From Arhodomonas aquaeolei DSM 8974 (GTDB lineage: Bacteria; Pseudomonadota; Gammaproteobacteria; Nitrococcales; Nitrococcaceae), in the NCBI RefSeq assembly GCF_000374645.1, contig NZ_KB894821.1, positions 1 to 43,686 of the forward strand: DNA of 43,686 bases, read 5' to 3'. Below are positions 5,726 through 20,880 of the stretch, one piece after another; position 1 is the first letter of the stretch, and each line of letters begins with the position of its first letter. Made by a program: the position numbers and the translations under genes. Below the pieces are notes generated by a model that saw nothing but the letters and a program-made list of their open reading frames with translations, searched no databases and was not told the DNA's origin.

Positions 5726-8023
5726 TCAGCCGGTGCGGCTGTCCGGGTAGGCGGCGCGCAGCTCGTTGGCCGCGTGGACCATGTTGCGCAGGGCGGGGAT
5801 GACCTCCTCCCAGCTCCGGGTCTTGAGTCCGCAGTCCGGGTTCACCCACAGCCGCTCCACCGGGATCAGCTCCGCGGCCCGCTGGAGGAGGCGCTTCATC
5901 TCCGCCACCTCCGGCGTCCGCGGCGAGTGGATGTCGTAGACACCCGGGCCGATCTCGTTGGGGTACTCGAAGGAGACGAAGGCATCGAGCAGCGTCATCG
6001 CGGAGCGGGACGTCTCGATGGTGATGACGTCGGCATCCAGCGCCGCGATGGCCTCGATGATGTCGTTGAACTCCGAATAGCACATGTGGGTGTGGATCTG
6101 GGTCTCGTCGCGCACCCCGCTGGTGGCCAGGCGGAAGGCCCGGGTCGCCCAGTCCAGGTAGTCCGCCCAGTCGGCGCGGCGCAGCGGCAGGCCCTCGCGG
6201 AAGGCGGGCTCGTCCACCTGGATGGCGGCGATGCCGGCGGACTCCAGGTCCACGACCTCGTCGCGCAGGGCCAGCGCGATCTGCTCGCAGGTGCGCGAGC
6301 GGGGCTGGTCGTCGCGCACGAACGACCACTGCAGGATGGTCACCGGGCCGGTGAGCATGCCCTTCATGGGCCGCTCGGTGAGCGACTGGGCGTAGCGCGA
6401 CCACTCCACGGTCATGGGGCCGGGGCGGCTGACGTCGCCGAAGATCACCGGCGGCTTCACGCCGCGGGAGCCGAAGCTCTGCACCCAGCCGTGCCGGGTG
6501 AAGCAGAAGCCCTCCAGCAGCTCGCCGAAGTACTCGACCATGTCGTTCCGCTCGGCCTCGCCGTGGACGAGCATGTCCAGGCCCACGTCCTCCTGCTGGT
6601 GCACGGCGTAGGCGATTTCCTCGCGCATGCGCTCGGCGTAGGCGGCGTCGTCCAGCCGGCCGGCGCGGTTGTCCCGGCGGGCCTTGCGGATGCCCCCGGT
6701 CTGGGGGAACGAGCCGATGGTCGTGGTCGGCAGCAGGGGCAGTGCCAGACGGGCGTGTTGGGCCGGGGCGCGCTCGGCGTAGGCGTGGGCACGCCGGCTC
6801 ATGGCCGCGTCGATCGCCGCGGCGCGCTCGCGCACGTCGCCGCGGTGGATGCGCGTCGAGCGCTCCCGGGCCTCGCGTGCCTGTCCGCTGGCCGCCAGGG
6901 CCGCGCGCACGTGCTCGCGGCCCTGGCTGAGGGCCGCGCCGAGGGTGGTGACCTCCCCGACCTTCTGTACCGCGAAGGCAAGCCAGCCGCGGAGCTCGTC
7001 GTCGAGCCGTTCCTCCGCGGTGACGTCCACCGGCACGTGGAGCAGCGAGCAGCTCGGGGCGAGCCACAGGCGCTCGCCGAGGCGGCGGTAGGCGGTTTCC
7101 AGGTCGTCGAGCTCGGCGTTGAGGTCCGTGCGCCAGACGTTGCGCCCGTCGATCACGCCCAGGGACAGGATCTGGTCGCCAGGCAGGGCGGCGATGAGCG
7201 CGCCCGGGTCGTCGTTGCCGCGCACCAGATCGACGTGCAGGCCTTCCTTGGACAGCGCAACGGCGGTGTCGAGGTTGTCCCCGAGGGCGCCGAAGTAGCT
7301 GGTCACCAGCCGGCGCACGCCGGTGTCCGCGAGGCCGCGGTGAGCCCGGGTCAGCGCTTCGCGCCATTCCGCGTCGAGATCCGTGACCAGCACGGGCTCG
7401 TCGATCTGCACCCATTCGACACCGGCCTCCGCCAGCCGGGAGAGCAGCTCACGGTAGACCACCACCAGCGGCTCCAGCAGCGCCAGTCTGCCGTTTTCCG
7501 GGTCCTCGTTGCGGGACAGGGCGAGGTAGGTGACCGGGCCGATGAGTACCGGCTTCGGCGTGTAGCCCGCGGCCTGGGCCTCGGTGACCTGCGCGATCAG
7601 CGGGCCCGCGTCCAGCTCGAAGCACTGGCCGGCGGCAAGCTCCGGGACGATGTAGTGGTAGTTGGTGTCGAACCACTTGGTCATCTCGCAGGCGTGGGTA
7701 TCCGTGCCGGTGGGGGCGCGGCCGCGAGCCATGCGGAAGTAGGTGTCGATGTCGCGGTCGTTGTCGCCGGTACGGAATCGCTCGGGGATGACGCCGAACA
7801 TCAGGGAGTGGTCGAGCACGCCGTCGTACCAGGAGAAGTCGCCGACCGGAACCATGTCCAGGCCGGCCTCCGCCTGCTGCCGCCAGTGGCGGTGACGGAG
7901 CTCCCTGCCCGTCTCCGCGAGGGCGTCACGGCCGGTGTCGCCGCGCCAGTAGCTCTCCAGCGCGCGCTTGAGCTCGCGGTGCAGGCCGAAGCGGGGAAAG
8001 CCGAGGGTGTGTGTCGTGACCAT
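5726..8023 (-). CDS. metE: Cobalamin-independent methionine synthase
   Basis: A 765-residue protein (the E. coli enzyme is 753). It transfers a methyl group from 5-methyltetrahydropteroyl-glutamate to homocysteine, the last step of methionine synthesis, in the cytosol without B12. The N-domain begins [18 protein letters not shown]. The C-domain carries all four zinc ligands: His646 and Cys648 in HTHMCYSEF, Glu670, and Cys731 in NPDCGLKTR. Their spacing equals His641/Cys643/Glu665/Cys726 of E. coli. The start at 8023 is set by AGGAGG 5 bases upstream; a 22-residue upstream extension lacks family similarity. A MetR box lies 90 bases upstream, and the gene diverges from the B12-riboswitch nrd operon. 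Confidence 0.97.
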
Positions 8024-8081
8024 CGATCCTCCTGTGTGGTCGTCGTCCATCGGTCCGGGGAGCATGCGCGCCGTATAAACG

Positions 8082-8125
8082 TGAATCAAACTAATTATAT
8101 TAAAGAAAGACGTGAATATATTTCA
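8082..8125 (-). promoter_or_regulatory. MetR boxes and metE promoter
   Basis: TGAATATATTTCA at 8113-8125 is an exact match to the MetR palindrome TGAA-N5-TTCA. TGAATCAAACTAA at 8082-8094 is a weaker half-site. Between them, on the minus strand, lies a perfect TATAAT (8094-8099); the box covers its poor -35 region. Activator-dependent transcription of metE from about 8087, giving a leader of about 64 nt, follows by analogy with enteric metE, which has tandem MetR sites. Confidence 0.7.
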
Positions 8126-8228
8126 TGTACCCGGGTCACGCCGACCTCGGCAAGGGTCCGCGCTCGCGTTGTCAACCGGGTTGCAAGAACGCGGGAGGGG
8201 CTATATCGTGAGGAGTAGTCCTGATAAG

Positions 8229-8244
8229 ACACCATATGTTGTGG
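8229..8244 (+). promoter_or_regulatory. Candidate NrdR box before nrdAB
   Basis: ACACCATATGTTGTGG matches the 16-base NrdR palindrome (ACAC-W-ATATAT-W-GTGT type) at 13 of 16 positions by hand alignment. A weaker copy with a CTATAT core sits exactly 31 bases upstream (8198-8213), the spacing usual for paired NrdR boxes. NrdR is the ATP/dATP-sensing repressor of ribonucleotide reductase genes. The first base pairs also belong to an RNA inverted repeat, so the call is tentative. Confidence 0.42.
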
Positions 8245-8326
8245 TGTCGAGAGGGGAACACCGGTGAGAATCCGGGGCTGACGCGCAACGGTAACGCGGT
8301 CCTCCGCGAAGCCCGAACACCTCTCA
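8242..8326 (+). promoter_or_regulatory. Cobalamin (B12) riboswitch upstream of nrdAB
   Basis: The plus strand carries the B12-aptamer landmarks in order: GGUGUC (8243-8248), GGGAAC-ACCGGUGAGAAUCCGG (8254-8275), the B12 box GACGCGCAACGGUAA (8280-8294), and AAGCCCGAACACCU (8309-8322). GGUGU at 8243 can pair with ACACC at 8317 to close the core. The order and sequences match the E. coli btuB aptamer. The peripheral arm between the B12 box and the 3' landmark is very short, so this is a compact version. It faces nrdA, not the divergent metE. Binding of B12 is expected to lower nrdAB expression. Confidence 0.93.
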
Positions 8327-8396
8327 GGACAGGGCCATCCGGCCCCACCGCTGGCTGCCTTCGCGACCGAGGTACCCGGTGCAGAGCGACACCCCG

Positions 8397-8418
8397 CGCC
8401 CGCCGCCGTTGGCGGGCG
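8397..8418 (+). promoter_or_regulatory. Perfect GC hairpin in the nrdA leader
   Basis: CGCCCGCC (8397-8404) pairs with GGCGGGCG (8411-8418) around a six-base loop, between the riboswitch and the start codon. A short TTT follows at 8428, but there is no real T-tract. It may be part of the expression platform (Rho-type or weak intrinsic termination). The AUG at 8487 and its GGAGG lie 60-70 bases downstream, so it does not itself mask the ribosome site. Confidence 0.45.
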
Positions 8419-8486
8419 GACAGCTGCTTTGCACACCTTCGCCGCGTAGGGGCCTCCCGGGAATCGACACGATCTGGAGGTCACCG

Positions 8487-11291
<2,805 letters not shown>

Positions 11292-11343
11292 CACGGCGCC
11301 GCGCCCCCGGGGCGCGGACGATTACCGGAGACGGAGTGACATC

Positions 11344-12405
11344 ATGCTGAGCTGGAACGACGAGAACACGGCGCGGAGCGAACCCAGGGCCGCGGATGCC
11401 GCCGAGCCCGTGCGCGTTGAGGACAAGCGCGTGATCAACGGCCAGGCGGACATCAATCAGCTGGCCCCGTTCCGCTATCCCTGGGCCTGGGAGTACTTCC
11501 TCAAGGCCAACAAGAACCACTGGACGCCGGTGGACATCAACATGTCCCAGGACGTGCACGATTACCACCACCGGCTCACGGACACCGAGCGCCACGTCTA
11601 CGAGAACGTGCTCGCCTACCTCACCACCGCGGACATCCTGGCGATGCGCAACATCGGCCTGGCGGTGATGGAGAAGATGTCGGCCCCGGAGCTGCAGATC
11701 TACCAGGCCCGGCAGGTCTACGAGGAGTCCATGCACACCTGGGCCTACCAGCACTGCATCGAGACCATCGGCCTGGAGCAGAGCGAGATCTACAACCGCT
11801 ACCGCGTGGTGCCCGCCATCCACCGCAAGATCGCGCTCTCCAACCGCCGCCTCAACGCGGTGCTGCGCCCGGACATCGACCTCACCGAGCCCGAGGCCCT
11901 GCAGGAGTTCCTGATGTCCTATCTCTTCTTCGCCGCGGTGTTCGAGGGGAGCTGGTTCTACAACGGCTTCAGCCCGATCTTCTCGCTGCAGCGCCGCGGG
12001 TTGATGAAGGGCACTGCGGAACAGCTGCAGTACATCATGCGCGACGAGGTCATGCACTTCACCTTCGGTATGCGCGTGGTGCGCCAGATCATGCAGGAGG
12101 AGAGCGTGCGCCCGGACCCGGCCGCGGTCACTGCCATGTGGGAGGAGGCGGACGAGGCCGAGCGGGCCTATTCCGATTACCTCCTCGCTGACCCGATCCT
12201 CGGCTACGACGCGGACATGCACCACGAGCAGTTCCGCTTCGTCGCCAACCGCCGGGCGCGCAAGGTCGGCCTGGACGAGCCCTTCCCCGGCGCACGCAAC
12301 GCCCTGCCGTGGCTCGACGAGCAGGCGAACCTGCGCAAGGAGAAGAACTTCTTCGAGACCCGGGTGACGGAGTACCAGACTGGCGGGGCCCTGACCTGGG
12401 AATGA
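11344..12405 (+). CDS. nrdB: Ribonucleoside-diphosphate reductase class Ia, beta subunit
   Basis: A 353-residue radical-generating subunit. The di-iron ligands are present: Asp97 (LTTADILA), Glu128 and His131 (ESMH), a Glu in AAVFEGSWFY, and Glu plus His in MRDEVMHF. Tyr135 stands four residues after His131, exactly where the radical Tyr122 of E. coli lies, so this is a tyrosyl-radical enzyme rather than a Tyr-less class. It needs iron (or manganese) and oxygen. The start is 52 bases after nrdA stops, with GGAG upstream. A Fur-boxed promoter begins five bases after its stop codon. Confidence 0.96.
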   Translation: MLSWNDENTARSEPRAADAAEPVRVEDKRVINGQADINQLAPFRYPWAWEYFLKANKNHWTPVDINMSQDVHDYHHRLTDTERHVYENVLAYLTTADILAMRNIGLAVMEKMSAPELQIYQARQVYEESMHTWAYQHCIETIGLEQSEIYNRYRVVPAIHRKIALSNRRLNAVLRPDIDLTEPEALQEFLMSYLFFAAVFEGSWFYNGFSPIFSLQRRGLMKGTAEQLQYIMRDEVMHFTFGMRVVRQIMQEESVRPDPAAVTAMWEEADEAERAYSDYLLADPILGYDADMHHEQFRFVANRRARKVGLDEPFPGARNALPWLDEQANLRKEKNFFETRVTEYQTGGALTWE

Positions 12406-12409
12406 CGTT

Positions 12410-12452
12410 ATTCCGGTACATGACAATGAGAATCATTGTCATGTACCGGAAT
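12410..12452. promoter_or_regulatory. Fur box inside a perfect 20-bp-arm palindrome
   Basis: Arms 12410-12429 and 12433-12452 are perfectly complementary around the 3-base centre GAA. The inner 19 bases (12422-12440, GACAATGAGAATCATTGTC) match the classical Fur consensus GATAATGATAATCATTATC at 16 of 19 positions. The outer part (ATTCCGGTACAT and its complement) extends the symmetry beyond what Fur needs. It could also act as a hairpin at the end of nrdB mRNA, but no T-tract follows. Confidence 0.85.
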
Positions 12453-12464
12453 CCTGTGTATACT
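12436..12464 (+). promoter_or_regulatory. Sigma70 promoter overlapped by the Fur box
   Basis: TTGTCA (12436-12441) and TATACT (12459-12464) are separated by exactly 17 bases, each one or two bases off consensus. The Fur box covers the -35, so iron-loaded Fur should repress it. The expected start is A12472, seven to eight bases past the -10. The mirror-image direction has no -10, so transcription is rightward, away from nrdB and towards a region without a protein gene. Confidence 0.75.
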
Positions 12465-12471
12465 CTCTCCC

Positions 12472-12562
12472 ATCGCGGTCGCGGTGGCGTGTGTCAGGAC
12501 GTCCCCCGGTTCGTCGCCCCAGACGGGCTAGTCAGCATTAGCGCACGCCCCGTGGCCGCGAT
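12472..12562 (+). ncRNA. Candidate Fur-regulated structured small RNA
   Basis: From the predicted first transcribed base, 12472-12484 pairs with 12550-12562 (13 bp). After one bulged base (12485), 12486-12494 pairs with 12541-12549 (9 bp). Of the 22 pairs, four are G-U wobbles, which fits an RNA helix rather than a DNA palindrome. An inner loop of about 46 bases can form CGTC/GACG (12512-12525). No same-strand protein gene follows until 15993, so it is not an obvious riboswitch leader. No U-rich terminator follows the stem, so the 3' end is uncertain. It does not resemble 4.5S, 6S or tmRNA. The RNA identity is inferred from sequence alone. Confidence 0.55.
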
Positions 12563-12602
12563 CCCTTCAATCATCAGCCGAGGCCGATGGAACGACAGGC
12601 AG

Positions 12603-12620
12603 GGCGTACGTCTGTACGCC
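12603..12620. terminator. Small hairpin at the end of the amidohydrolase gene
   Basis: GGCGTAC (12603-12609) pairs with GTACGCC (12614-12620) around a GTCT loop, three bases past the amidohydrolase stop on the minus strand. It has no T-run on either strand. It could serve as a two-way end point for that gene and for rightward transcripts from 12472. Confidence 0.3.
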
Positions 12621-12622
12621 GC

Positions 12623-13900
12623 CTACGCGACCTCCTGCTGATGGCTCATGCGGGCGGACGGGGCCTTGTGGAACTGCCCGTCCTTCATGATCGCGAGCAG
12701 ACGGTCGTGGTCCTGAAGTATGCGAATGTCCTTGAGTGGATCGCCGTCGACCAGGATCAGGTCGGCAAGGAAGCCGGGGCGAACCTGTCCGAGCTCGTCA
12801 GGCTGTTTCATGATCTCTCCGCCCAGGCGGGTCGCCGCGACGAGCGTATCCATCGGCGAGAGCCCGAGCAGGTCGACGAAGTACTCCAGGTCCTTGGCGT
12901 AGGTCCCGTGGGGCGTCCATGCGAAGCCGTAGTCGCCGCCGGGCAGCACCTTGACCCCACGTTCGATCATGCGCTTCATCGAGTCGATCGCGGCCTCCAG
13001 CTCGCGGACGTAGCCGAGGTCCGCGGCGATCTCCGGGGTCAGGCCCCAGTCGCCGGCGCCGTAGGCCGTCTGCACGAGCCATCCGATCCCCGGTGCCACG
13101 AATATCCTGTCGCGGGCCTCCTCGAGCATGTCCAGGGTTTCCTCGTCGACGAAGCTCGCGTGATAGATGATGTCGACGCCCAGGCGCAGGCACATCCGGA
13201 TCGACTCGTTGCTGCGGGCATGGGCGCACACGCGCACCCCCGGTTTGCGGCGCGCCTCGCGTACCGCCATCTCCGCTTCCTCGTCGGACATGGTGGTCTC
13301 TTCCGCCATGACGTTGCCCGTGATGTTCTCCCCGGAGAGATTCAGCTTGATCTGATCCACCCCCTCCTTGAGCAGCATGCGCACGGCACGCCGCATCTCC
13401 TCCGGGCCGTTGATCATCTCGACGAAGCTGTAGGCGTTGATGTGACTGGGATTGACGTCGCCCAGGCCGCCGATGGTGGAGATCTCCGGGCCGTTCGCGA
13501 GATAGCGGGGGCCGGGGATCTGACCGCTGTTGATCGCGTCCCGGATGACCACGTCCAGCCGCGGCTTGGCGGCGGCCGCGCCGCAGCACATGGTGTAACC
13601 GCTGTCCAGATAGGTCTTGGCCGATCCGGCCGCCGCGAGGATGTGCTCCTCGACGGGCATGATGCCGATCTTGTCCAGGCCTGCCTGGTCGATCCAGCTC
13701 AGATGGGTGTGCGCGTCGCACAGGCCGGACATCAGCGTGGCGCCGCTGCCGTTGACGACCGTCGCCGCCGGGGCCTTGATCTGGCCGCTCCCCGCGGCGA
13801 CCTCGGCAATGCGGTTGTCCCGCACGAGGACCTCTCCGGCATAGGGTTGGCTGCCGGTGGAATCCAGGACGTTGACGTTGGTGAACAGGGTCTCGCTCAT
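12623..13900 (-). CDS. Metal-dependent amidohydrolase family protein
   Basis: A 425-residue protein of the amidohydrolase superfamily (imidazolonepropionase/prolidase-like branch). It has an N-terminal beta-sandwich entry (NVNVLDSTGSQPYAGEVLVR), the metal motif DAHTHL near residue 65, further metal-site candidates in CAHARSNESIRM and DIIYHASFVDEE, and a C-terminal composite strand (GFLADLILVDGDPLKDIRIL). These enzymes hydrolyse amide or cyclic C-N bonds. The ATG at 13900 has GGAGGAG upstream; an 18-residue longer form is unlikely. It is the last gene of a catabolic set with an alpha/beta-hydrolase and an FAH-family gene. The substrate is unknown. Confidence 0.82.
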   Translation of the reverse strand: MSETLFTNVNVLDSTGSQPYAGEVLVRDNRIAEVAAGSGQIKAPAATVVNGSGATLMSGLCDAHTHLSWIDQAGLDKIGIMPVEEHILAAAGSAKTYLDSGYTMCCGAAAAKPRLDVVIRDAINSGQIPGPRYLANGPEISTIGGLGDVNPSHINAYSFVEMINGPEEMRRAVRMLLKEGVDQIKLNLSGENITGNVMAEETTMSDEEAEMAVREARRKPGVRVCAHARSNESIRMCLRLGVDIIYHASFVDEETLDMLEEARDRIFVAPGIGWLVQTAYGAGDWGLTPEIAADLGYVRELEAAIDSMKRMIERGVKVLPGGDYGFAWTPHGTYAKDLEYFVDLLGLSPMDTLVAATRLGGEIMKQPDELGQVRPGFLADLILVDGDPLKDIRILQDHDRLLAIMKDGQFHKAPSARMSHQQEVA

Positions 13901-13931
13901 GACACTCTCCTCCAGTGCAATTCTCGGGCGT

Positions 13932-13999
13932 GGCGCGCCGGGACGGCGCGCCATTCTCGCCAGTACCCGTGTGCGGCTTGGGCGGCGGCCGTGCCGCCC
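13932..13999 (-). terminator. Two GC hairpins between hydrolase and amidohydrolase genes
   Basis: GGCGCGCC occurs at 13932-13939 and 13945-13952 and can form an 8-bp stem. GGGCGGC (13980-13986) pairs with GCCGCCC (13993-13999). They lie in the 156-base gap between two same-strand genes and have no T-tract. They may stabilise the upstream mRNA or reduce read-through into the amidohydrolase gene. Confidence 0.4.
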
Positions 14000-14056
14000 G
14001 GTGCCGCTTTCTGTCGTTGTGCGTCAGTCACCGGTGCCGCGCGTTGCGGCGGGGCA

Positions 14057-14836
14057 TCAGGCGTGGTTGTGGAAATACAGGTTGAGTAGCGCGTGGTTGA
14101 CCTCGTTGGCGCGTTCCAGCGGGGTCCAGTGGCCACAGCGGTGCAGGATCTCCAGGTGGGCCCCGGCGATCCGTTTCGCCATGTCACGGGCGGCGGTGGG
14201 CGGGGCGACCCCGTCCTCGTCGCCGGTGACCAGCAGGGTCGGGCAGCCAATCGCTCCGAGGTCCGCGGCCTGTGCGGCGGCCAGCGCCTCGCAGGTGCGT
14301 GCATAGCCTTCCGGGGCCTGGCGCATGACGAGCTCGCGCACGAATGCGGCGACCGCGGGCTGGTGCGCGCGGGTGTCCGCGGCGAGGCTGCCCTGGTACA
14401 GGGCGTCGGCGATCGGGATCATGCCGTTGTCCCGGGCTGCGGCGGCGCGGTCGCGGATACCCTTGCGAGCGGCCTCCGGGGGTTCGAGGATCGGCCCCAT
14501 CAGTGCCAGGCTCGCCGTACGTTCCGGGTGCCGTGCGGCGATGTGCTGACACACGATCGTCCCCATCGAGTGGCCCACCCAGTGGGCGCGCTCGACGCCG
14601 AGGGAATCCGCCAGGGCGAGCAGGTCGTCGACGAAGCCGTCGATGGACAGCTCGCCGGTGCACGGTGACAGGCCCGAGCCCTCGAGATCCGGGCGGATCA
14701 CCCGGAAATGGCGCGACAGCATATTGGCCTGGGGGCCCCAGGCATTCGAGTCGCCGCCGAGCCCGTGCACCATGATCACGGCCTCGCCGTCGCCGTGCTC
14801 TTCCACGAGGAGTTGTTTTCCGTTGACCGCGTGCAT
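14057..14836 (-). CDS. Alpha/beta-fold hydrolase
   Basis: A 259-residue cytoplasmic hydrolase. It has the oxyanion segment VHGLGGDSNAWG, the nucleophile elbow GHSMG with Ser90, a late acidic residue in LVTGDEDGVAPP, and the catalytic His in RCGHWTPLE, giving a complete Ser-Asp-His triad. Length and motif order resemble 3-oxoadipate enol-lactonase and meta-cleavage hydrolases, but this cannot be settled by eye. The start has AGGAGCG upstream. Its neighbours are an FAH-family gene upstream and an amidohydrolase downstream on the same strand, suggesting a joint pathway for a ring or amide compound. Confidence 0.85.
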   Translation of the reverse strand: MHAVNGKQLLVEEHGDGEAVIMVHGLGGDSNAWGPQANMLSRHFRVIRPDLEGSGLSPCTGELSIDGFVDDLLALADSLGVERAHWVGHSMGTIVCQHIAARHPERTASLALMGPILEPPEAARKGIRDRAAAARDNGMIPIADALYQGSLAADTRAHQPAVAAFVRELVMRQAPEGYARTCEALAAAQAADLGAIGCPTLLVTGDEDGVAPPTAARDMAKRIAGAHLEILHRCGHWTPLERANEVNHALLNLYFHNHA

Positions 14837-14888
14837 TGGTTTGCGCTCCTGTCGTCGAATTTGCGGTTAGTCCGGCTTTTCCGGTGTC

Positions 14889-15779
14889 TTACGCGGAGGT
14901 GACGTCGTTGACCAGTTCGCCGAGCCCGTCGATGGCGACACGGACGCGATCGCCCACCTGCAGGAAGCGGGGGGGATCGAAGCCGATCCCGACGCCCTGC
15001 GGTGTCCCGGTCGCGATGATGTCGCCGGGCCGCAGTGTCATGCCCGCCGACAGGGTCTCGATCAGTGTCGGGATGTCGAAAATCAGGTCGCGGGTGTTGG
15101 CTTCCTGGCGCAGCTCGTCATTCACCCAGCAGCGGACGTTCAGATTCTCAGGGTCCACTTCGTCCGCGGTGGCGATCCATGGTCCCATCGGGCAGAAGGT
15201 GTCGAGTGATTTGCCGATGAACCACTGGCGGTGAAGCGCCTGCAGATCGCGTGCGGTGACGTCGTTGACCGCCACGTATCCGAACACGTGCCGATACGCG
15301 TCGGCGGCGCGGATCCCGCGGCCGCCCTGGCCGATGACCACGCCCACCTCGGCCTCGTAGTCGAGCTTCTCGCTGATCCCTTCGGGATAGATGACGCGTG
15401 CTCCCGGACCGATGACACTGGAAGGCGCCTTGGTGAAAACGATCGGCGCCTCCGGTGCGTCCGCGGACCGTTTGGCGTCGCTGCGGTCGAAACCGCTGCG
15501 TGAGAACTCGTTGGCGTGGGCGAGGTAGTTCTTGCCTACACACATGAGGTTGCGCCCGGGGGTGGGGATCGGCGCCATGAGCGCGACCTGGTCGAGACCG
15601 ATGGCCTTGGCATCATCGAAGGAGGCGTCGGGGACCGATACGCCGTATTGGTTGATCCACTGGGTCATGCTCTCCGGGGCGCCGGCGACGCACGCGGAGG
15701 CCGGAAACACGCGTCCCCGGTCCGCGTCGAGAATCCCCAGGCGTGTCGCGCCGTCGTGGCGGTAAGTGACTAGTTTCAT
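14889..15779 (-). CDS. Fumarylacetoacetate hydrolase (FAH) family protein
   Basis: A 296-residue protein. The C-terminal FAH domain spans about 80-290 with the metal ligands Glu-x-Glu in KLDYEAEVGVVIG and Asp in AVNDVTARDLQ, plus PMGPWIAT and GDIIATGTPQGVG, all typical of the FahA/2-oxohepta-3-ene-dioate hydratase family. These enzymes cleave or hydrate 2,4-dioxo acids. MKLVTYRHDG at 15779 is the usual family start; seven residues further upstream are possible. It is first in the minus-strand catabolic set and faces the GntR gene across a 213-base control region full of TTGGT half-sites. Confidence 0.87.
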   Translation of the reverse strand: MKLVTYRHDGATRLGILDADRGRVFPASACVAGAPESMTQWINQYGVSVPDASFDDAKAIGLDQVALMAPIPTPGRNLMCVGKNYLAHANEFSRSGFDRSDAKRSADAPEAPIVFTKAPSSVIGPGARVIYPEGISEKLDYEAEVGVVIGQGGRGIRAADAYRHVFGYVAVNDVTARDLQALHRQWFIGKSLDTFCPMGPWIATADEVDPENLNVRCWVNDELRQEANTRDLIFDIPTLIETLSAGMTLRPGDIIATGTPQGVGIGFDPPRFLQVGDRVRVAIDGLGELVNDVTSA

Positions 15780-15791
15780 GGGCGGTCCCTT

Positions 15792-15845
15792 TTGGTCCAA
15801 TTAAACCAATCATTATTTATTGGTTGAGAAAAACCCTAATTTGGT
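15792..15845. promoter_or_regulatory. Likely GntR/FadR-family operator cluster
   Basis: TTGGT/ACCAA half-sites occur at 15792-15796, 15805-15809, 15820-15824 and 15841-15845 in an AT-rich stretch. AACCAAT (15804-15810) and ATTGGTT (15819-15825) form a perfect inverted repeat with an 8-base spacer. FadR-subfamily regulators such as LldR or VanR bind ATTGGT/ACCAAT-type palindromes, so this is the probable site through which the adjacent GntR protein controls the FAH operon and itself. Confidence 0.6.
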
Positions 15846-15937
15846 TCCGCATGGGTGTCAAGCGTCGCGGAGGGTCCGAAAGCGCCGGTTCACGTGCTTT
15901 TCGAGCCGGATGGCACCGGTGGACGCGCGTAGTGATG

Positions 15938-15943
15938 TATAAT
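15938..15943 (+). promoter_or_regulatory. -10 element of the GntR gene
   Basis: A perfect TATAAT on the plus strand, with no convincing -35. A start near 15950 would leave a leader of about 43 bases before the GTG at 15993. It would exclude the ATG at 15948 as start codon. Confidence 0.45.
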
Positions 15944-15992
15944 TCCGGTGAACCATTTCGCCCTGTTTGGTATGGCATTAGAGGGAGGTGGC

Positions 15993-16679
15993 GTGTCCAC
16001 GAGTCCAGGCGTCGCGACCGGCAAGGAGGCTGTACAGGCCTATCTGGAGGAGCGCATCGCGTCCGGCGAGCTCGCGCCGGGGGACAAGCTCCCCACCGAG
16101 CGTGCGCTCGTGGAGCAGTTCGGCCTGTCCCGCAACACGGTCCGGGGTGTGCTCCGGGACCTGGAGGCCAGCGGCAAGATCATCCGCTTCATCGGGCGGG
16201 GGACGTTCGTGACCGGGCGCCAGCCGAAGGATCGTGTCCCCGACGTGCCGGCCGGCGCCGATGCGAGTCCGGCGGAGGTGATGGAGGTCCGGCTCATGCT
16301 CGAGCCGGCGGTGGCGGAGGCACTGGTCACCCGGGCGAGCGGTGCCGATCTCGCCTACATGCGTACCTGCCTGGAGCGTGCCGAGGCGGCCCGGGACTGG
16401 CGGGACTTCGAGAAATGGGATGCGGCGCTGCATGCGGCCATGGTCCGGGCGACCCGCAACCAGTTCCTCATCGAGATATTCGAGCGGATAGACGAGGCCC
16501 GGAGTCAGGCCGAGTGGGGCAAGCTCAAGCGGGCGAGCCTCACGGAGGAGCGGCGGCTCGGCTACCAGCACGAGCACCGGGAGATCGTGGGCGCGCTGCA
16601 GGAGCGAGACGGCCAGCTCGCCCGGGAGCTGACCGAAAAGCACCTGCTGCACGTGCGCCGGAATCTGTTGGGCTACTGA
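15993..16679 (+). CDS. GntR family (FadR-type) transcriptional regulator
   Basis: A 228-residue protein. The winged HTH covers about 10-75 (KLPTERALVEQFGLSRNTVR, then GRGTFVTGR). An all-helical FCD effector domain follows from about 90 (EVMEVRLMLEPAVAEALV), with DAALHAAMVRATRN supplying the usual metal-site Asp/His positions. The GTG at 15993 is preceded by AGGGAGG at 15982-15988; the ATG codons at 15948 and 15972 have weaker support. FadR-type regulators bind acidic pathway intermediates, so it probably represses the divergent FAH/hydrolase/amidohydrolase genes until the substrate is present. Confidence 0.87.
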   Translation: MSTSPGVATGKEAVQAYLEERIASGELAPGDKLPTERALVEQFGLSRNTVRGVLRDLEASGKIIRFIGRGTFVTGRQPKDRVPDVPAGADASPAEVMEVRLMLEPAVAEALVTRASGADLAYMRTCLERAEAARDWRDFEKWDAALHAAMVRATRNQFLIEIFERIDEARSQAEWGKLKRASLTEERRLGYQHEHREIVGALQERDGQLARELTEKHLLHVRRNLLGY

Positions 16680-16696
16680 GCGGCCACCGGCCGACG

Positions 16697-17890
16697 CTAG
16701 CCGGTATGGTCTGTGGCGAAGGTCGGGGCCGTACCGCCCGCCCGCTCGGGCACGAGGGCCGACGCGGTGCAGACCAGCGCCCCCGCCAGGGCGAAGCCAG
16801 TGAATACCGCAGCGTAACCGAACCCGGGGATGAGCACGCCGGCGAGCGACGAGCCGCAGACCTGGCCGACGGCGATAGCGGTGAACGGCGGTACCGCCCC
16901 GGCGGCGGGACGGTCGTGCAGGATCCTCACGCCGCAGACCACGTGCAGCCCGGTCAGGGTCATGTAGGCGACGCCGAACAGCGCGGCCGAGAGCAGGGCC
17001 ACCGCGCCGTTGCCTGGCGCGGCGGCGATCAGCACCAGCGCCAGGGCCAGCAGGCCGAGGGCGGCCCCGTGGGTCAGCGGTGCGCCCAGCCGGTGGACGA
17101 TGTCGCCGGTGCCGCCGCCGGCGAGCCCGGCGAGACCTACCGCGAGCCAGATCAGCGCGGTCTGCCGTGGCGATGCCCCGGCCAGGGCGGTGACCAGGTC
17201 CGGGGTGAATACCCAGTACGGCGCGCTCACCAGGCCCATGACGAAGGCGAAGACGGACAGCGTCGCCATCGCGTGACGCTGATCGCGGCCCAGTGCAGGG
17301 CGCGTGCCCGGTGCCTCGCCGTTCCCCCCGGGACGCGGTCCCGGCAGGTGGCGCCAGGCGAGCACGGCCGCCATGAGCGCCACGGCGGCGAAGGCCGTGT
17401 ACGCGCTGCGCCAGTCGGTGGCCCAGGCGAGCACCGCGGGTGCCGCGGCGGCCACACCGATGCTGGTGCCCGCGTTGTTGACGGCGTTGAGCCGGCCATG
17501 GAGGCCGGACGGGGCCGAGGCGCGCACCGCCTCGGTCATCGCCGGCATGATCAGCCCCGTGCACACACCGCAGGCGCCGACCCCGAGTGCCAGTACGCCG
17601 GCACCGCGGGCACCGGCGATGGCCGCCAGGCCGACGAGGGCGGCCGCCGACGCCAGGACCGCCGTGGTCCGGGCGCCGAGGCGCTCGGCGAGAAACGGCG
17701 CGAACAGGCTGGTGGCGACGAAGCTCACGAACGTCAGTGCGCCGATGAACCCGACCGCCTCCGGCGATAGTCCGAGGGTCTCCCGGATGAAGGGCACGAA
17801 CAGCCCGTAGGCGAAGCGGGCGAGGCCGTAGCCCAGGGCGACCAGCCCGGCGCCGAGTGCTGCGAAGCCGGTCACGCCCCGCCGGGTCAT
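16697..17890 (-). CDS. MFS transporter, YbfB/YjiJ-like
   Basis: A 397-residue protein with about twelve hydrophobic helices. The opening segment ALGYGLARFAYGLFVPFIRE resembles the YbfB/YjiJ branch of the major facilitator superfamily, and FLAERLGARTTAV is the loop 2-3 region. The central cytoplasmic loop falls near residues 190-210. Its ATG overlaps the stop of the upstream TetR gene (ATGA), so the two are co-translated and the TetR protein probably controls this exporter. A small stem (ACCGGC/GCCGGT, 16686-16705) lies at its 3' end against the converging GntR gene. The substrate is unknown. Confidence 0.85.
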   Translation of the reverse strand: MTRRGVTGFAALGAGLVALGYGLARFAYGLFVPFIRETLGLSPEAVGFIGALTFVSFVATSLFAPFLAERLGARTTAVLASAAALVGLAAIAGARGAGVLALGVGACGVCTGLIMPAMTEAVRASAPSGLHGRLNAVNNAGTSIGVAAAAPAVLAWATDWRSAYTAFAAVALMAAVLAWRHLPGPRPGGNGEAPGTRPALGRDQRHAMATLSVFAFVMGLVSAPYWVFTPDLVTALAGASPRQTALIWLAVGLAGLAGGGTGDIVHRLGAPLTHGAALGLLALALVLIAAAPGNGAVALLSAALFGVAYMTLTGLHVVCGVRILHDRPAAGAVPPFTAIAVGQVCGSSLAGVLIPGFGYAAVFTGFALAGALVCTASALVPERAGGTAPTFATDHTG

Positions 17891-18441
17891 GGCGCCTCCC
17901 GGCCGTGCATCGCCCCGAGTAGCGCCCGGGCGTCGGCCCGGATCCGCTCCGCCCCGGTCACCGGGAGCGCCTGGGTCGCCCCTTCCAGTATCAGGTAGAC
18001 TCGTCCGGCGAGCCGTTCCGGATCGCCGGCGCCATCCCGTGCGGCGGCCTCGCGGATGACCCCGATGACCTCGCGCTTGCAGGCGAGGGCGTTGATGTGG
18101 ACCGCGGGGTCGTGGTGCTCGTATTCCCCCATAGCCTTCACCAGCATGCAGCCGTGGGCGCTGCGCTCGGCGAGCCATGCGCAGTGGGCGTCGACGAGCC
18201 GGGCGACCGAGTTCCCGGGGCCTTCATCCAGTGCCGCGCGCAGTACCGCCAGGTAGCGCCGGTGGCGCCGTGCGAGCACGGCGGCGACCAGCTCCTCCTT
18301 GGCCGGGAAGTGATGATAGAGGGTCATGCGGGCCACGCCGGCCTCGTTGACGAGGCGGTCGATCCCGGTGGCATGGAAGCCCTCCGTGTAGAAGAGCCGC
18401 TCGGCGGTGTCGAGCAGGGCGTCTCGTTTGCTGACGGTCAT
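17887..18441 (-). CDS. TetR/AcrR family transcriptional regulator
   Basis: A 184-residue protein with the TetR HTH at about 8-52 (DALLDTAERLFYTEGFHATG, then GVARMTLYHHFPAKEELVAA) and a helical ligand domain. The first-helix pattern and HGCMLVKAMGEY segment resemble regulators of small exporters. It is the promoter-proximal gene of a two-gene operon with the MFS transporter and probably represses both. A semi-palindrome at 18465-18480 upstream is its likely operator. The ligand is unknown. Confidence 0.87.
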   Translation of the reverse strand: MTVSKRDALLDTAERLFYTEGFHATGIDRLVNEAGVARMTLYHHFPAKEELVAAVLARRHRRYLAVLRAALDEGPGNSVARLVDAHCAWLAERSAHGCMLVKAMGEYEHHDPAVHINALACKREVIGVIREAAARDGAGDPERLAGRVYLILEGATQALPVTGAERIRADARALLGAMHGREAP

Positions 18442-18464
18442 GCTGCGCCCCCGTCCGAACTGTA

Positions 18465-18480
18465 TAGAACGATCAGTCTA
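18465..18480. promoter_or_regulatory. Likely TetR-family operator
   Basis: TAGAACGATCAGTCTA is palindromic at 12 of 16 positions (six matched pairs), centred on GATC, and lies 24 bases upstream of the TetR start codon. Position and form are typical of an autoregulatory TetR operator. AACAATCGGTCG follows and adds a further GATCGGTC-like half. Confidence 0.5.
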
Positions 18481-18518
18481 ACAATCGGTCGGGGGACGCC
18501 TGAAGGGGGGGCGGCGGG

Positions 18519-19448
18519 TCAGAAGGCCACGCGGTCGGCGCCCTTGAGCGCGAGCATCTCCCGGGCCTCCGCCGGTGTGGCGATCTCCAGGCCGAGCCCG
18601 TCGAGCACCTGGCGGATGCGCCCGACCTGGGCGGCGTTGGAGGGCGCGAGCACGCCACGGTCGAGGAACAGGTTGTCCTCCAGGCCCACGCGCACGTTGC
18701 CCCCCATGGCCGCGCCCATGCTCGCCAGCGGGAGCTGGTGTCGGCCCGCCCCCAGCACGGAGAAGCGGTAGTCGTCGCCGAACAGCCGGTCGGCGGTGCG
18801 TTTCATGTGTGCGAGCTGGTCCGGGTCCGCGCCGATGCCGCCGAGGATGCCGAGCACGAACTGCACGAACAGCGGCGGCCGCACCAGTCCCCGGTCGAGG
18901 AAATGGGCGAGGGTGAACAGGTGGCCGACGTCGTAGCACTCGAACTCGAAGCGCGTGCCGCAACCGTCGCCCAGCTCGGCGAGCAGGGTCTCGATGTCGG
19001 CGAAGGTGTTCTTGAACACGAAGTCGCGGCTGGCGTCGAGGAACGCCGGCTCCCAGTCGTAGCGCCAGTGGTCGTAGCGCGAGAGTGCCGGATAGAGGCC
19101 GAAATTCATGGTGCCCATGTTCAGCGAGGCCATCTCCGGCTGCGCGCGCAGCGCCGCCTGCATACGCTCGTGCACGGTCATGGGCATGCCGCCGCCGGTG
19201 GAGATGTTTACCACCGCGTCGGTGGCCGCGCGGATACGCGGGAGGAAGCGCATGAACACCCCGGGGTCCGGCGTGGGCCGGCCGTCCTCGGGGTTGCGGG
19301 CGTGGAGGTGGAGCACTGCCGCGCCGGCCTCGGCGGCGCCGATGGCCTGCTCGGCGATCTGCTCCGGGGTGATCGGCAGGTACTCGCTCATGGTCGGGGT
19401 GTGCACCGAGCCGGTCACCGCACAGGTGATGATGACCTTGCGTGTCAC
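18519..19448 (-). CDS. Beta-keto acid cleavage enzyme (BKACE, DUF849 family)
   Basis: A 309-residue TIM-barrel protein. It has KVIITCAVTGSVHTPTM at the N-terminus, zinc ligands His47 and His49 in VLHLHARNPEDGRP, NISTGGGMPMT, MASLNMGTMNFG, and the late GGNVRVGLEDNLFLDRG segment with the conserved Glu. BKACE proteins condense a beta-keto acid with acetyl-CoA to give acetoacetate plus a new CoA ester; Kce of lysine fermentation is the best-known member. The start is GTG with GGAGG upstream. It lies directly after the aminotransferase gene, which could supply a beta-keto acid from a beta-amino acid. The actual substrate is unknown. Confidence 0.9.
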   Translation of the reverse strand: MTRKVIITCAVTGSVHTPTMSEYLPITPEQIAEQAIGAAEAGAAVLHLHARNPEDGRPTPDPGVFMRFLPRIRAATDAVVNISTGGGMPMTVHERMQAALRAQPEMASLNMGTMNFGLYPALSRYDHWRYDWEPAFLDASRDFVFKNTFADIETLLAELGDGCGTRFEFECYDVGHLFTLAHFLDRGLVRPPLFVQFVLGILGGIGADPDQLAHMKRTADRLFGDDYRFSVLGAGRHQLPLASMGAAMGGNVRVGLEDNLFLDRGVLAPSNAAQVGRIRQVLDGLGLEIATPAEAREMLALKGADRVAF

Positions 19449-19521
19449 GACGCGCCTCCGTTGATTGTCTGTTCCAGGGGACGGGACGGTCCGCGGGACG
19501 CCGTGGCGGCGTCCCGCGGCG

Positions 19522-20880
19522 TTACAGCGGCGCCGCGAGCTCCGCTTCCAGCGCCGCGAGGGCGTCGCCGAGGGTCGCGGCGATCTCCTCGATGTGGGAC
19601 TCGTCGACGATCAGCGGCGGGCAGACCAGCACGTGGTCGCCGCTGTAGCCGCCGCGACTGCGGCGCCAGTAGATGATCAGGCCGCGCTCGTAGGCGAGCT
19701 CCACCAGGCGCGCGGCGGCCATGCGCTCCGGGGGCAGTACCGCCATGGTCTCGTGGTCGGCGACCAGCTCCATGGCCAGCAGCAGGCCCTTGCCACGGAC
19801 GTCGCCGATCATCGGGAAGCGCTCCGCCAGCCCGTCCAGCCGGGCGCGGAGCCGCTCGCCCATGCGCGCGGCATTGCCCACCAGGTCCCGGGATTCGATC
19901 TCGTCGAGCACCGCCAGCCCGGCGGCACAGGCGAGGGGGTTGCCGGCGTAGGTGTAGCCATGGATGAACCCGCCGGTGTCGAGCACCGGCTCGACCATCC
20001 AGCCCGGCGCGACCATGGCGCCGAGGGGCGCGTAGCCGGCGGCGAAGCCCTTGGACAGGGCGATCAGGTCGGGGGTCACGCCCCAGTGCTCGCCGGCGAG
20101 GAAGCGCCCGGTGCGCCCGGCGCCGGACATCACCTCGTCGTGGATGAGCAGCACGCCGTAGCGCTCGCAGATCTCGCGAATGCGCGGGTAGTAGCTGTCC
20201 GGGGCGACCAGGGCGCCGGTGGCGGCGCCGCCCACCGGCTCCATGATGAAGGCGAGCACCGTCTCCGGGCCCTGGCGCAGGATCTCCGCCTCCAGCATGT
20301 TGGCGTAGCGCAGCCCGCGCTGGTGCATGTCGAGCCCGTCCCGGTCCAGGTAGCAGGTGGGTGCCGGGATCTTGGGCATCTCGTGCATCATCGGCGAGAA
20401 CGGCGCGCTCATGGGGGCGTAGCCGGTCACCGCCAGCGCCCCGAGGGTGGCGCCGTGGTAGCTCGGAAACCGGGAGATGACCTTGTATCGGCTGGCCTGG
20501 CCGGTGGCGACGGCATACTGGCGCGCCAGCTTCATGCAGCTCTCCACGGCCTCCGAGCCGCCGGAGACGAAGAAAACCCGGTCCATTTCCGGGGGCATGG
20601 CCGCCGCGGTGCGGGCGGCGAGCCGCTCGGCGGGTTCGTTCTCGAAGTGCAGCCGGTAGGCGAAGGTCGCGCGGGCCATCTGGGCCTGCATCGCCTCCAG
20701 CACCCGGGGGTTGGAGTGGCCGATGTTGCTGACCATCGCCCCGGAGGAGCCGTCCAGGTAGCGCCGGCCGTCGGTGTCCCACAGGTACACGCCCTCGGCC
20801 CGGTCGATCAGCGGGCGGCGCTGGCGGGACTGGTAGAACAGGTGGGATGGTGGTCGTTCGTCGCCGGCGGATGCGCTCAT
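19522..20880 (-). CDS. Class III PLP-dependent aminotransferase
   Basis: A 452-residue fold-type I omega-aminotransferase. Visible are the substrate-side segment YLDGSSGAMVSNIGHSNPRV, phosphate-binding GSEAVE (108-113), Tyr-His of FPSYHGAT that stacks on PLP, Asp248 in LLIHDEV, Lys277 (Schiff base) in IALSKGFAAGY, and GYTYAGNPLACAAG. Family members move amino groups from terminal amines or beta-amino acids to pyruvate or 2-oxoglutarate in the cytosol. Position between a polyamine-type importer and BKACE suggests deamination of the imported amine, with a beta-keto acid as product. Substrate assignment is inference. Confidence 0.9.
   Translation of the reverse strand: MSASAGDERPPSHLFYQSRQRRPLIDRAEGVYLWDTDGRRYLDGSSGAMVSNIGHSNPRVLEAMQAQMARATFAYRLHFENEPAERLAARTAAAMPPEMDRVFFVSGGSEAVESCMKLARQYAVATGQASRYKVISRFPSYHGATLGALAVTGYAPMSAPFSPMMHEMPKIPAPTCYLDRDGLDMHQRGLRYANMLEAEILRQGPETVLAFIMEPVGGAATGALVAPDSYYPRIREICERYGVLLIHDEVMSGAGRTGRFLAGEHWGVTPDLIALSKGFAAGYAPLGAMVAPGWMVEPVLDTGGFIHGYTYAGNPLACAAGLAVLDEIESRDLVGNAARMGERLRARLDGLAERFPMIGDVRGKGLLLAMELVADHETMAVLPPERMAAARLVELAYERGLIIYWRRSRGGYSGDHVLVCPPLIVDESHIEEIAATLGDALAALEAELAAPL

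Follow-up and report, generated by a model that had tools for sequence, protein, structure and literature searches.

Within the window analysed, the whole 43,686-nucleotide stretch of the Arhodomonas aquaeolei DSM 8974 genome, the ribonucleotide reductase gene nrdB ends at position 12405 on the plus strand and an amidohydrolase gene (PF01979; 12623-13954) ends at 12623 on the minus strand. The two genes are convergent and are separated by a gap of 217 bases, 12406-12622. Five open reading frames overlap this gap, and none of the five reached the Pfam cut-off, in agreement with the original prediction, which had described a gene-free gap just after the ribonucleotide reductase genes. Among them, the plus-strand frames 12489-12641, 12309-12641 and 12587-14089 have no family match, so that the promoter described below has no recognisable same-strand coding gene downstream of it. 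One weak match in the gap, to DUF3693 (E 0.11; 12497-12574, minus strand), fell under its Pfam cut-off and was set aside. At the other end of the operon, a cobalamin riboswitch (RF00174, 41 bits; 8205-8342, plus strand) lies directly upstream of nrdA, and B12 may therefore also control this class I ribonucleotide reductase operon, whose enzyme presumably requires iron.

A predicted Fur box at the centre of a long palindrome

Four bases separate the nrdB stop codon from a 43-base palindrome (12410-12452, assigned to neither strand), which consists of perfect 20-bp arms around a 3-nt centre. In the 363,686 genome bases that we sampled, window included, no perfect inverted repeat with a 0-8 nt centre is longer. 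At its centre, on the plus strand, lies a predicted Fur box (12422-12440) that matches the Fur consensus, taken from general knowledge, at 16 of 19 positions; weaker Fur-like matches of 12/19 lie 6 bp to either side. The palindrome is far longer than the 19-bp box, and with these flanking matches it may be able to accommodate more than one Fur dimer. Within three mismatches of the consensus, the 3.96-Mb genome has only two sites, this box being one of them, and the reversed control gave none; the other sits between what we take to be TonB-dependent receptor-like and ExbB-like frames. Sites with at most three mismatches were present in 7 of 23 family genomes, and nine of these family-genome loci were inspected, for their surrounding frames only.

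Overlapping the predicted Fur box is a sigma-70-like promoter, TTGTCA-17-TATACT (12436-12464, plus strand), which scores 10/12. It is the sole match in 12000-13200, where 0.1 would be expected, and remains the sole match in 8000-20000, where 0.8 would be expected at that threshold. RyhB-like Fur-controlled sRNAs are recognised functionally by a Fur box over an orphan promoter, and the same arrangement, with a predicted site, is found here. The earlier proposal of a Fur promoter in this gap is supported by a 16/19 predicted box and the promoter that overlaps it. The expected +1, placed from the -10 with a spacing of seven bases, is A12472.

A 22-pair helix beginning at the expected +1

An RNA starting at A12472 would open with a long helix. 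Its 5' arm spans 12472-12494 (plus strand), with U12485 bulged, and its 3' arm spans 12541-12562 on the same strand. Between them lies a 46-nt apical region (12495-12540, plus strand), in which 12508-12515 pairs with 12522-12529 as an inner 8-bp hairpin and C-rich segments are left unpaired. Four of the pairs are G-U: 12479/12555, 12481/12553, 12492/12543 and 12494/12541. Folding confirmed this helix as it had originally been predicted, with A12472 opening 22 pairs with 12541-12562, one bulge and four G-U pairs. The minimum free energy of 12472-12562 is -52.9 kcal/mol (z -5.16), which none of 200 shuffles equalled, and moving this 91-nt frame 4 nt in either direction loses more than 8 kcal/mol. 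The minus strand of the same region folds at -43.1 (z -2.36), and all four stem wobbles are G-U on the plus strand; the better plus-strand fold and the direction of the wobbles together favour an RNA made from the plus strand, four wobble events being weak evidence.

Further downstream the structure is less striking. The longer stretch 12472-12660 gave z -2.31, with 4 of 200 shuffles as good, and 12563-12622 by itself only z -1.81. A possible second structured domain or 3' end region lies at 12572-12645 (plus strand; z -3.15, 1 of 200 shuffles as good); it has no U-tract and extends into the convergent amidohydrolase gene at that gene's 3' end.

Palindrome and stem as possible 3'-end structures

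As RNA, the palindrome forms a 20-bp hairpin, and the stretch 12406-12471 folds at z -8.59; this hairpin may be the 3' end of the nrdAB message. The strongest rival to a small RNA starts from that point. It takes the palindrome as the terminator or stabiliser hairpin of nrdAB, with a Fur box that is incidental or weakly used, and the 22-pair stem as a further 3'-UTR structure or a bidirectional terminator between convergent genes. The hairpin's strength, its position 4 bases past the nrdB stop and the convergence of the flanking genes all speak for this account, as does the nearest relative that we found, which also has a strong hairpin soon after nrdB. That relative is represented by L032 and L125, two loci with 4053 bases of identical sequence, and these were the relatives read downstream of nrdB. 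Their nrdAB shares about 83% DNA identity with that of A. aquaeolei, and the match to L032 stops at the nrdB stop codon (12405; 4056 in L032), a gene-order break at the very edge of the gap. Beyond it the relative has a different hairpin and a different gene, and L032 contains no Fur-like site scoring at least 13. Among the best 80 of 384 NrdB loci, the top plus-strand Fur-like site scored 15/19 and lay inside the nrdB match of a single locus (L088). Within the 23 family genomes, A. aquaeolei included, one other genome has a close NrdB (88%), and three others have one at 43-45%.

Several features do not fit this account. Neither the palindrome nor the 22-pair stem is followed by a U-tract, and terminators do not usually have a loop as large as 46 nt. 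The account would also leave unexplained why a 16/19 Fur box and a 10/12 promoter stand exactly before the stem. We consider it unlikely that palindrome and stem are both 3'-end structures and nothing more; a palindrome that serves as the nrdAB 3' hairpin is in any case also compatible with an sRNA.

Possible transcription beyond the helix

Between 12464 and 13200 we found no Rho-independent terminator with a U-tract. Transcription from the predicted Fur-controlled promoter could accordingly be imagined to run into the amidohydrolase gene (12623-13954, minus strand) and to act as a cis-antisense or collision regulator. The convergent genes, the lack of a terminator before 12623 and the long following plus-strand frame 12587-14089, with no family match, would suit this explanation, but we know of no reason for an amidohydrolase gene to answer to iron, and a stable 5' stem would be superfluous for the purpose. 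We regard it as improbable. We give slightly less credence again to a Fur-repressed message that encodes a small protein, such as the 50-codon frame from GTG 12489 to a stop at 12639-12641: this frame is open, and is part of a 110-codon frame (12309-12641), but 12489-12638 has no Pfam match, the start codon lies within the helix and lacks a convincing ribosome site, and no DNA homologue was found in the order and class genomes searched.

Searches for homologues

The locus appears to be confined to this genome among those searched. Within the genome itself there was no second copy, the only matches being the locus and its palindrome read backwards. Among 59 relatives (its own genome included), the best match outside A. 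aquaeolei, of those listed, had an E of 0.006 over 22 bases. A search of 54 genomes of the order (own included), in which up to 14 first-look candidates were scored per genome, returned one match, the locus itself. Plasmids and phages gave no homologue. No genome listed from the searches of the 59 relatives and the 54 order genomes is marked as belonging to the same genus. In the class (369 genomes, own included), with up to two first-look candidates scored per genome, two matches emerged, the locus itself and a 31-nt match in another genome, G163 (E 2.1e-5). The latter falls inside a 953-codon open frame, presumably that of an RND-type transporter-like protein, and just six shared residues are visible (LMIEGI); because of the long frame and these six residues only, we treat it as most probably a chance match.

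The covariance model R1 had a single sequence, entered twice, as its basis and so contains no covariation. Against the 59 genomes, with stricter filters and up to 73 candidates scored per genome, it matched the locus alone. Run on the window and seven further loci, it matched the locus itself on both strands and gave eight additional weak matches, the best of them at 14184-14229 of the window (21.9 bits, E 0.02). Since no homologue was found, no covariation stands behind the helix.

The coincidence at the +1

We counted helices under our own definition, in which the partner lies 60-159 nt away and one bulge or mismatch is permitted. Of the window's 87,032 start positions, that at 12472 has the longest helix. 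In the 363,686 genome bases, window included, helices of at least 22 pairs begin at 6 of 721,592 starts, which fall in five places, or about one per 73 kb, in a genome of 69% G+C. With five such places in the sample, the helix is rare rather than unique, and it is its position that counts. The same bases contain four promoters with at least 10/12 matches; helices starting 4-9 nt past the -10 of these have 22, 13, 7 and 7 pairs, so that a helix of at least 14 pairs occurs only behind the promoter at 12436-12464. By chance, one or another of the four would be followed by a 22-pair helix with a probability of about 2e-4 (about 8e-6 per start x 6 positions x 4 promoters), a figure that serves as a guide only, being a post hoc test with the observed place among the counts. 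It is unlikely that Fur box, promoter and +1-anchored helix coincide by chance. A chance origin, in which a lone Fur box and an accidental stem share a gap that was rearranged recently, would be consistent with the lack of conservation in the genomes searched and with the five places that have helices this long, but, set against the roughly 2e-4 post hoc coincidence at +1, it is the reading to which we give the least weight.

Known RNA families and target pairing

Rfam includes families for RyhB, PrrF and NrrF. At the gathering score, the whole window matched the cobalamin riboswitch only, and these three models were unmatched. At E <=10, the region 12380-12680 gave nine matches, all of them to miRNA or snoRNA models, all on the palindrome and all under the gathering score; the best reached 28.2 bits (E 0.00094) where the gathering score is 82, and we dropped them all as generic hairpin matches. 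The 22-pair helix had no match at E <=10. A known family of other function, which the original prediction had named as a finding that would count against it, was thus seen on the helix at neither threshold, and its remark that the RNA resembles neither RyhB nor PrrF nor NrrF is in keeping with the absence of any Rfam family match.

The genome encodes Hfq, and Fur-family proteins at three places. Target prediction with the 46-base loop, which had been put forward with the locus, gave no signal for sdhC or sodB, the only classical targets tried. This was a crude comparison of duplex energies that took no account of accessibility, with the amidohydrolase start set 2 nt off, against a background of 336 starts. 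These were the first ATGs of all frames with 250 or more codons, read in six frames without removing spurious ones. Ranked as fractions of this background, with 0 strongest, the loop scored 0.92, 0.96, 0.70, 0.36 and 0.73 against sdhC, sodB, nrdA, nrdB and the amidohydrolase gene, and 12563-12600 scored 0.99, 0.77, 0.75, 0.77 and 0.85. The sdhC and sodB starts therefore pair more weakly than most of the background. Because no target stands out in this crude test, it argues weakly against the standard RyhB target set.

A candidate iron-regulated small RNA

The likeliest explanation is an sRNA that is specific to this lineage and repressed by Fur, with a new sequence and a known kind of function. 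We put at about one half the probability that an orphan non-coding RNA is made from a Fur-repressed promoter, with A12472 as its first base, judging from the DNA. That the locus gives rise to a Fur-regulated transcript of some sort we think likely; that base pairing as an sRNA is the purpose of this transcript we consider an evenly balanced proposition. When iron is plentiful, Fe-Fur would cover the -35 region and block RNA polymerase, and in low iron an RNA with a closed 5' end would be made from A12472. The sealed end may make the RNA resistant to 5'-dependent decay. Pairing with mRNAs, probably together with Hfq as in RNAs of the RyhB class, could involve the C-rich apical region or else the linker at 12563-12571. 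The inverted repeats around 12572-12645 would be the likeliest place for its 3' end.

How far does this candidate belong with RyhB, PrrF and NrrF, the class to which it was first assigned? The assignment holds in part: the Fur box, the promoter, the helix at +1, the Fur and Hfq genes and the lack of any Rfam family on the helix are in its favour, but neither a terminator nor a homologue was found, and pairing with sdhC and sodB is below most of the background. Fur-regulated analogues of RyhB include PrrF, FsrA, HrrF, BrrF, IsrR and NrrF. The candidate has in common with RyhB-type sRNAs a predicted Fur-controlled orphan promoter, in a genome with Fur and Hfq, and differs from them in opening directly with a 22-pair stem, in the absence of a detectable U-tract terminator and in matching no Rfam family. 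According to PMC9294342, the RyhB-like iron-sparing sRNAs of different bacteria share a function and have little or no sequence likeness; that our candidate resembles none of them is therefore what one would expect and does not show it to be new in kind. We regard it as a candidate member of the RyhB-like functional kind that belongs to no named family. According to PMC11005374, RusT of Caulobacter crescentus is an Hfq-bound sRNA that is induced by iron starvation and controlled by NtrYX, whereas our candidate has a predicted Fur box. Literature searches on nearby lineages (Ectothiorhodospiraceae, Arhodomonas) returned no such iron-regulated sRNA, the one paper listed being on a Spiribacter genome, and no report of an operator/terminator hairpin combined with Fur was returned.

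If real, this RNA would be an independent case of an iron-sparing sRNA, with an unusual closed 5' end, beside ribonucleotide reductase. More tentatively, and with considerable doubt, one palindrome may have two roles, as the DNA operator at which Fur controls a 5'-sealed sRNA and as the RNA hairpin at the 3' end of nrdAB. Were this double role true, iron control of an sRNA would be built into the tail of a ribonucleotide reductase operon that is presumably iron-dependent and apparently controlled by a B12 riboswitch.
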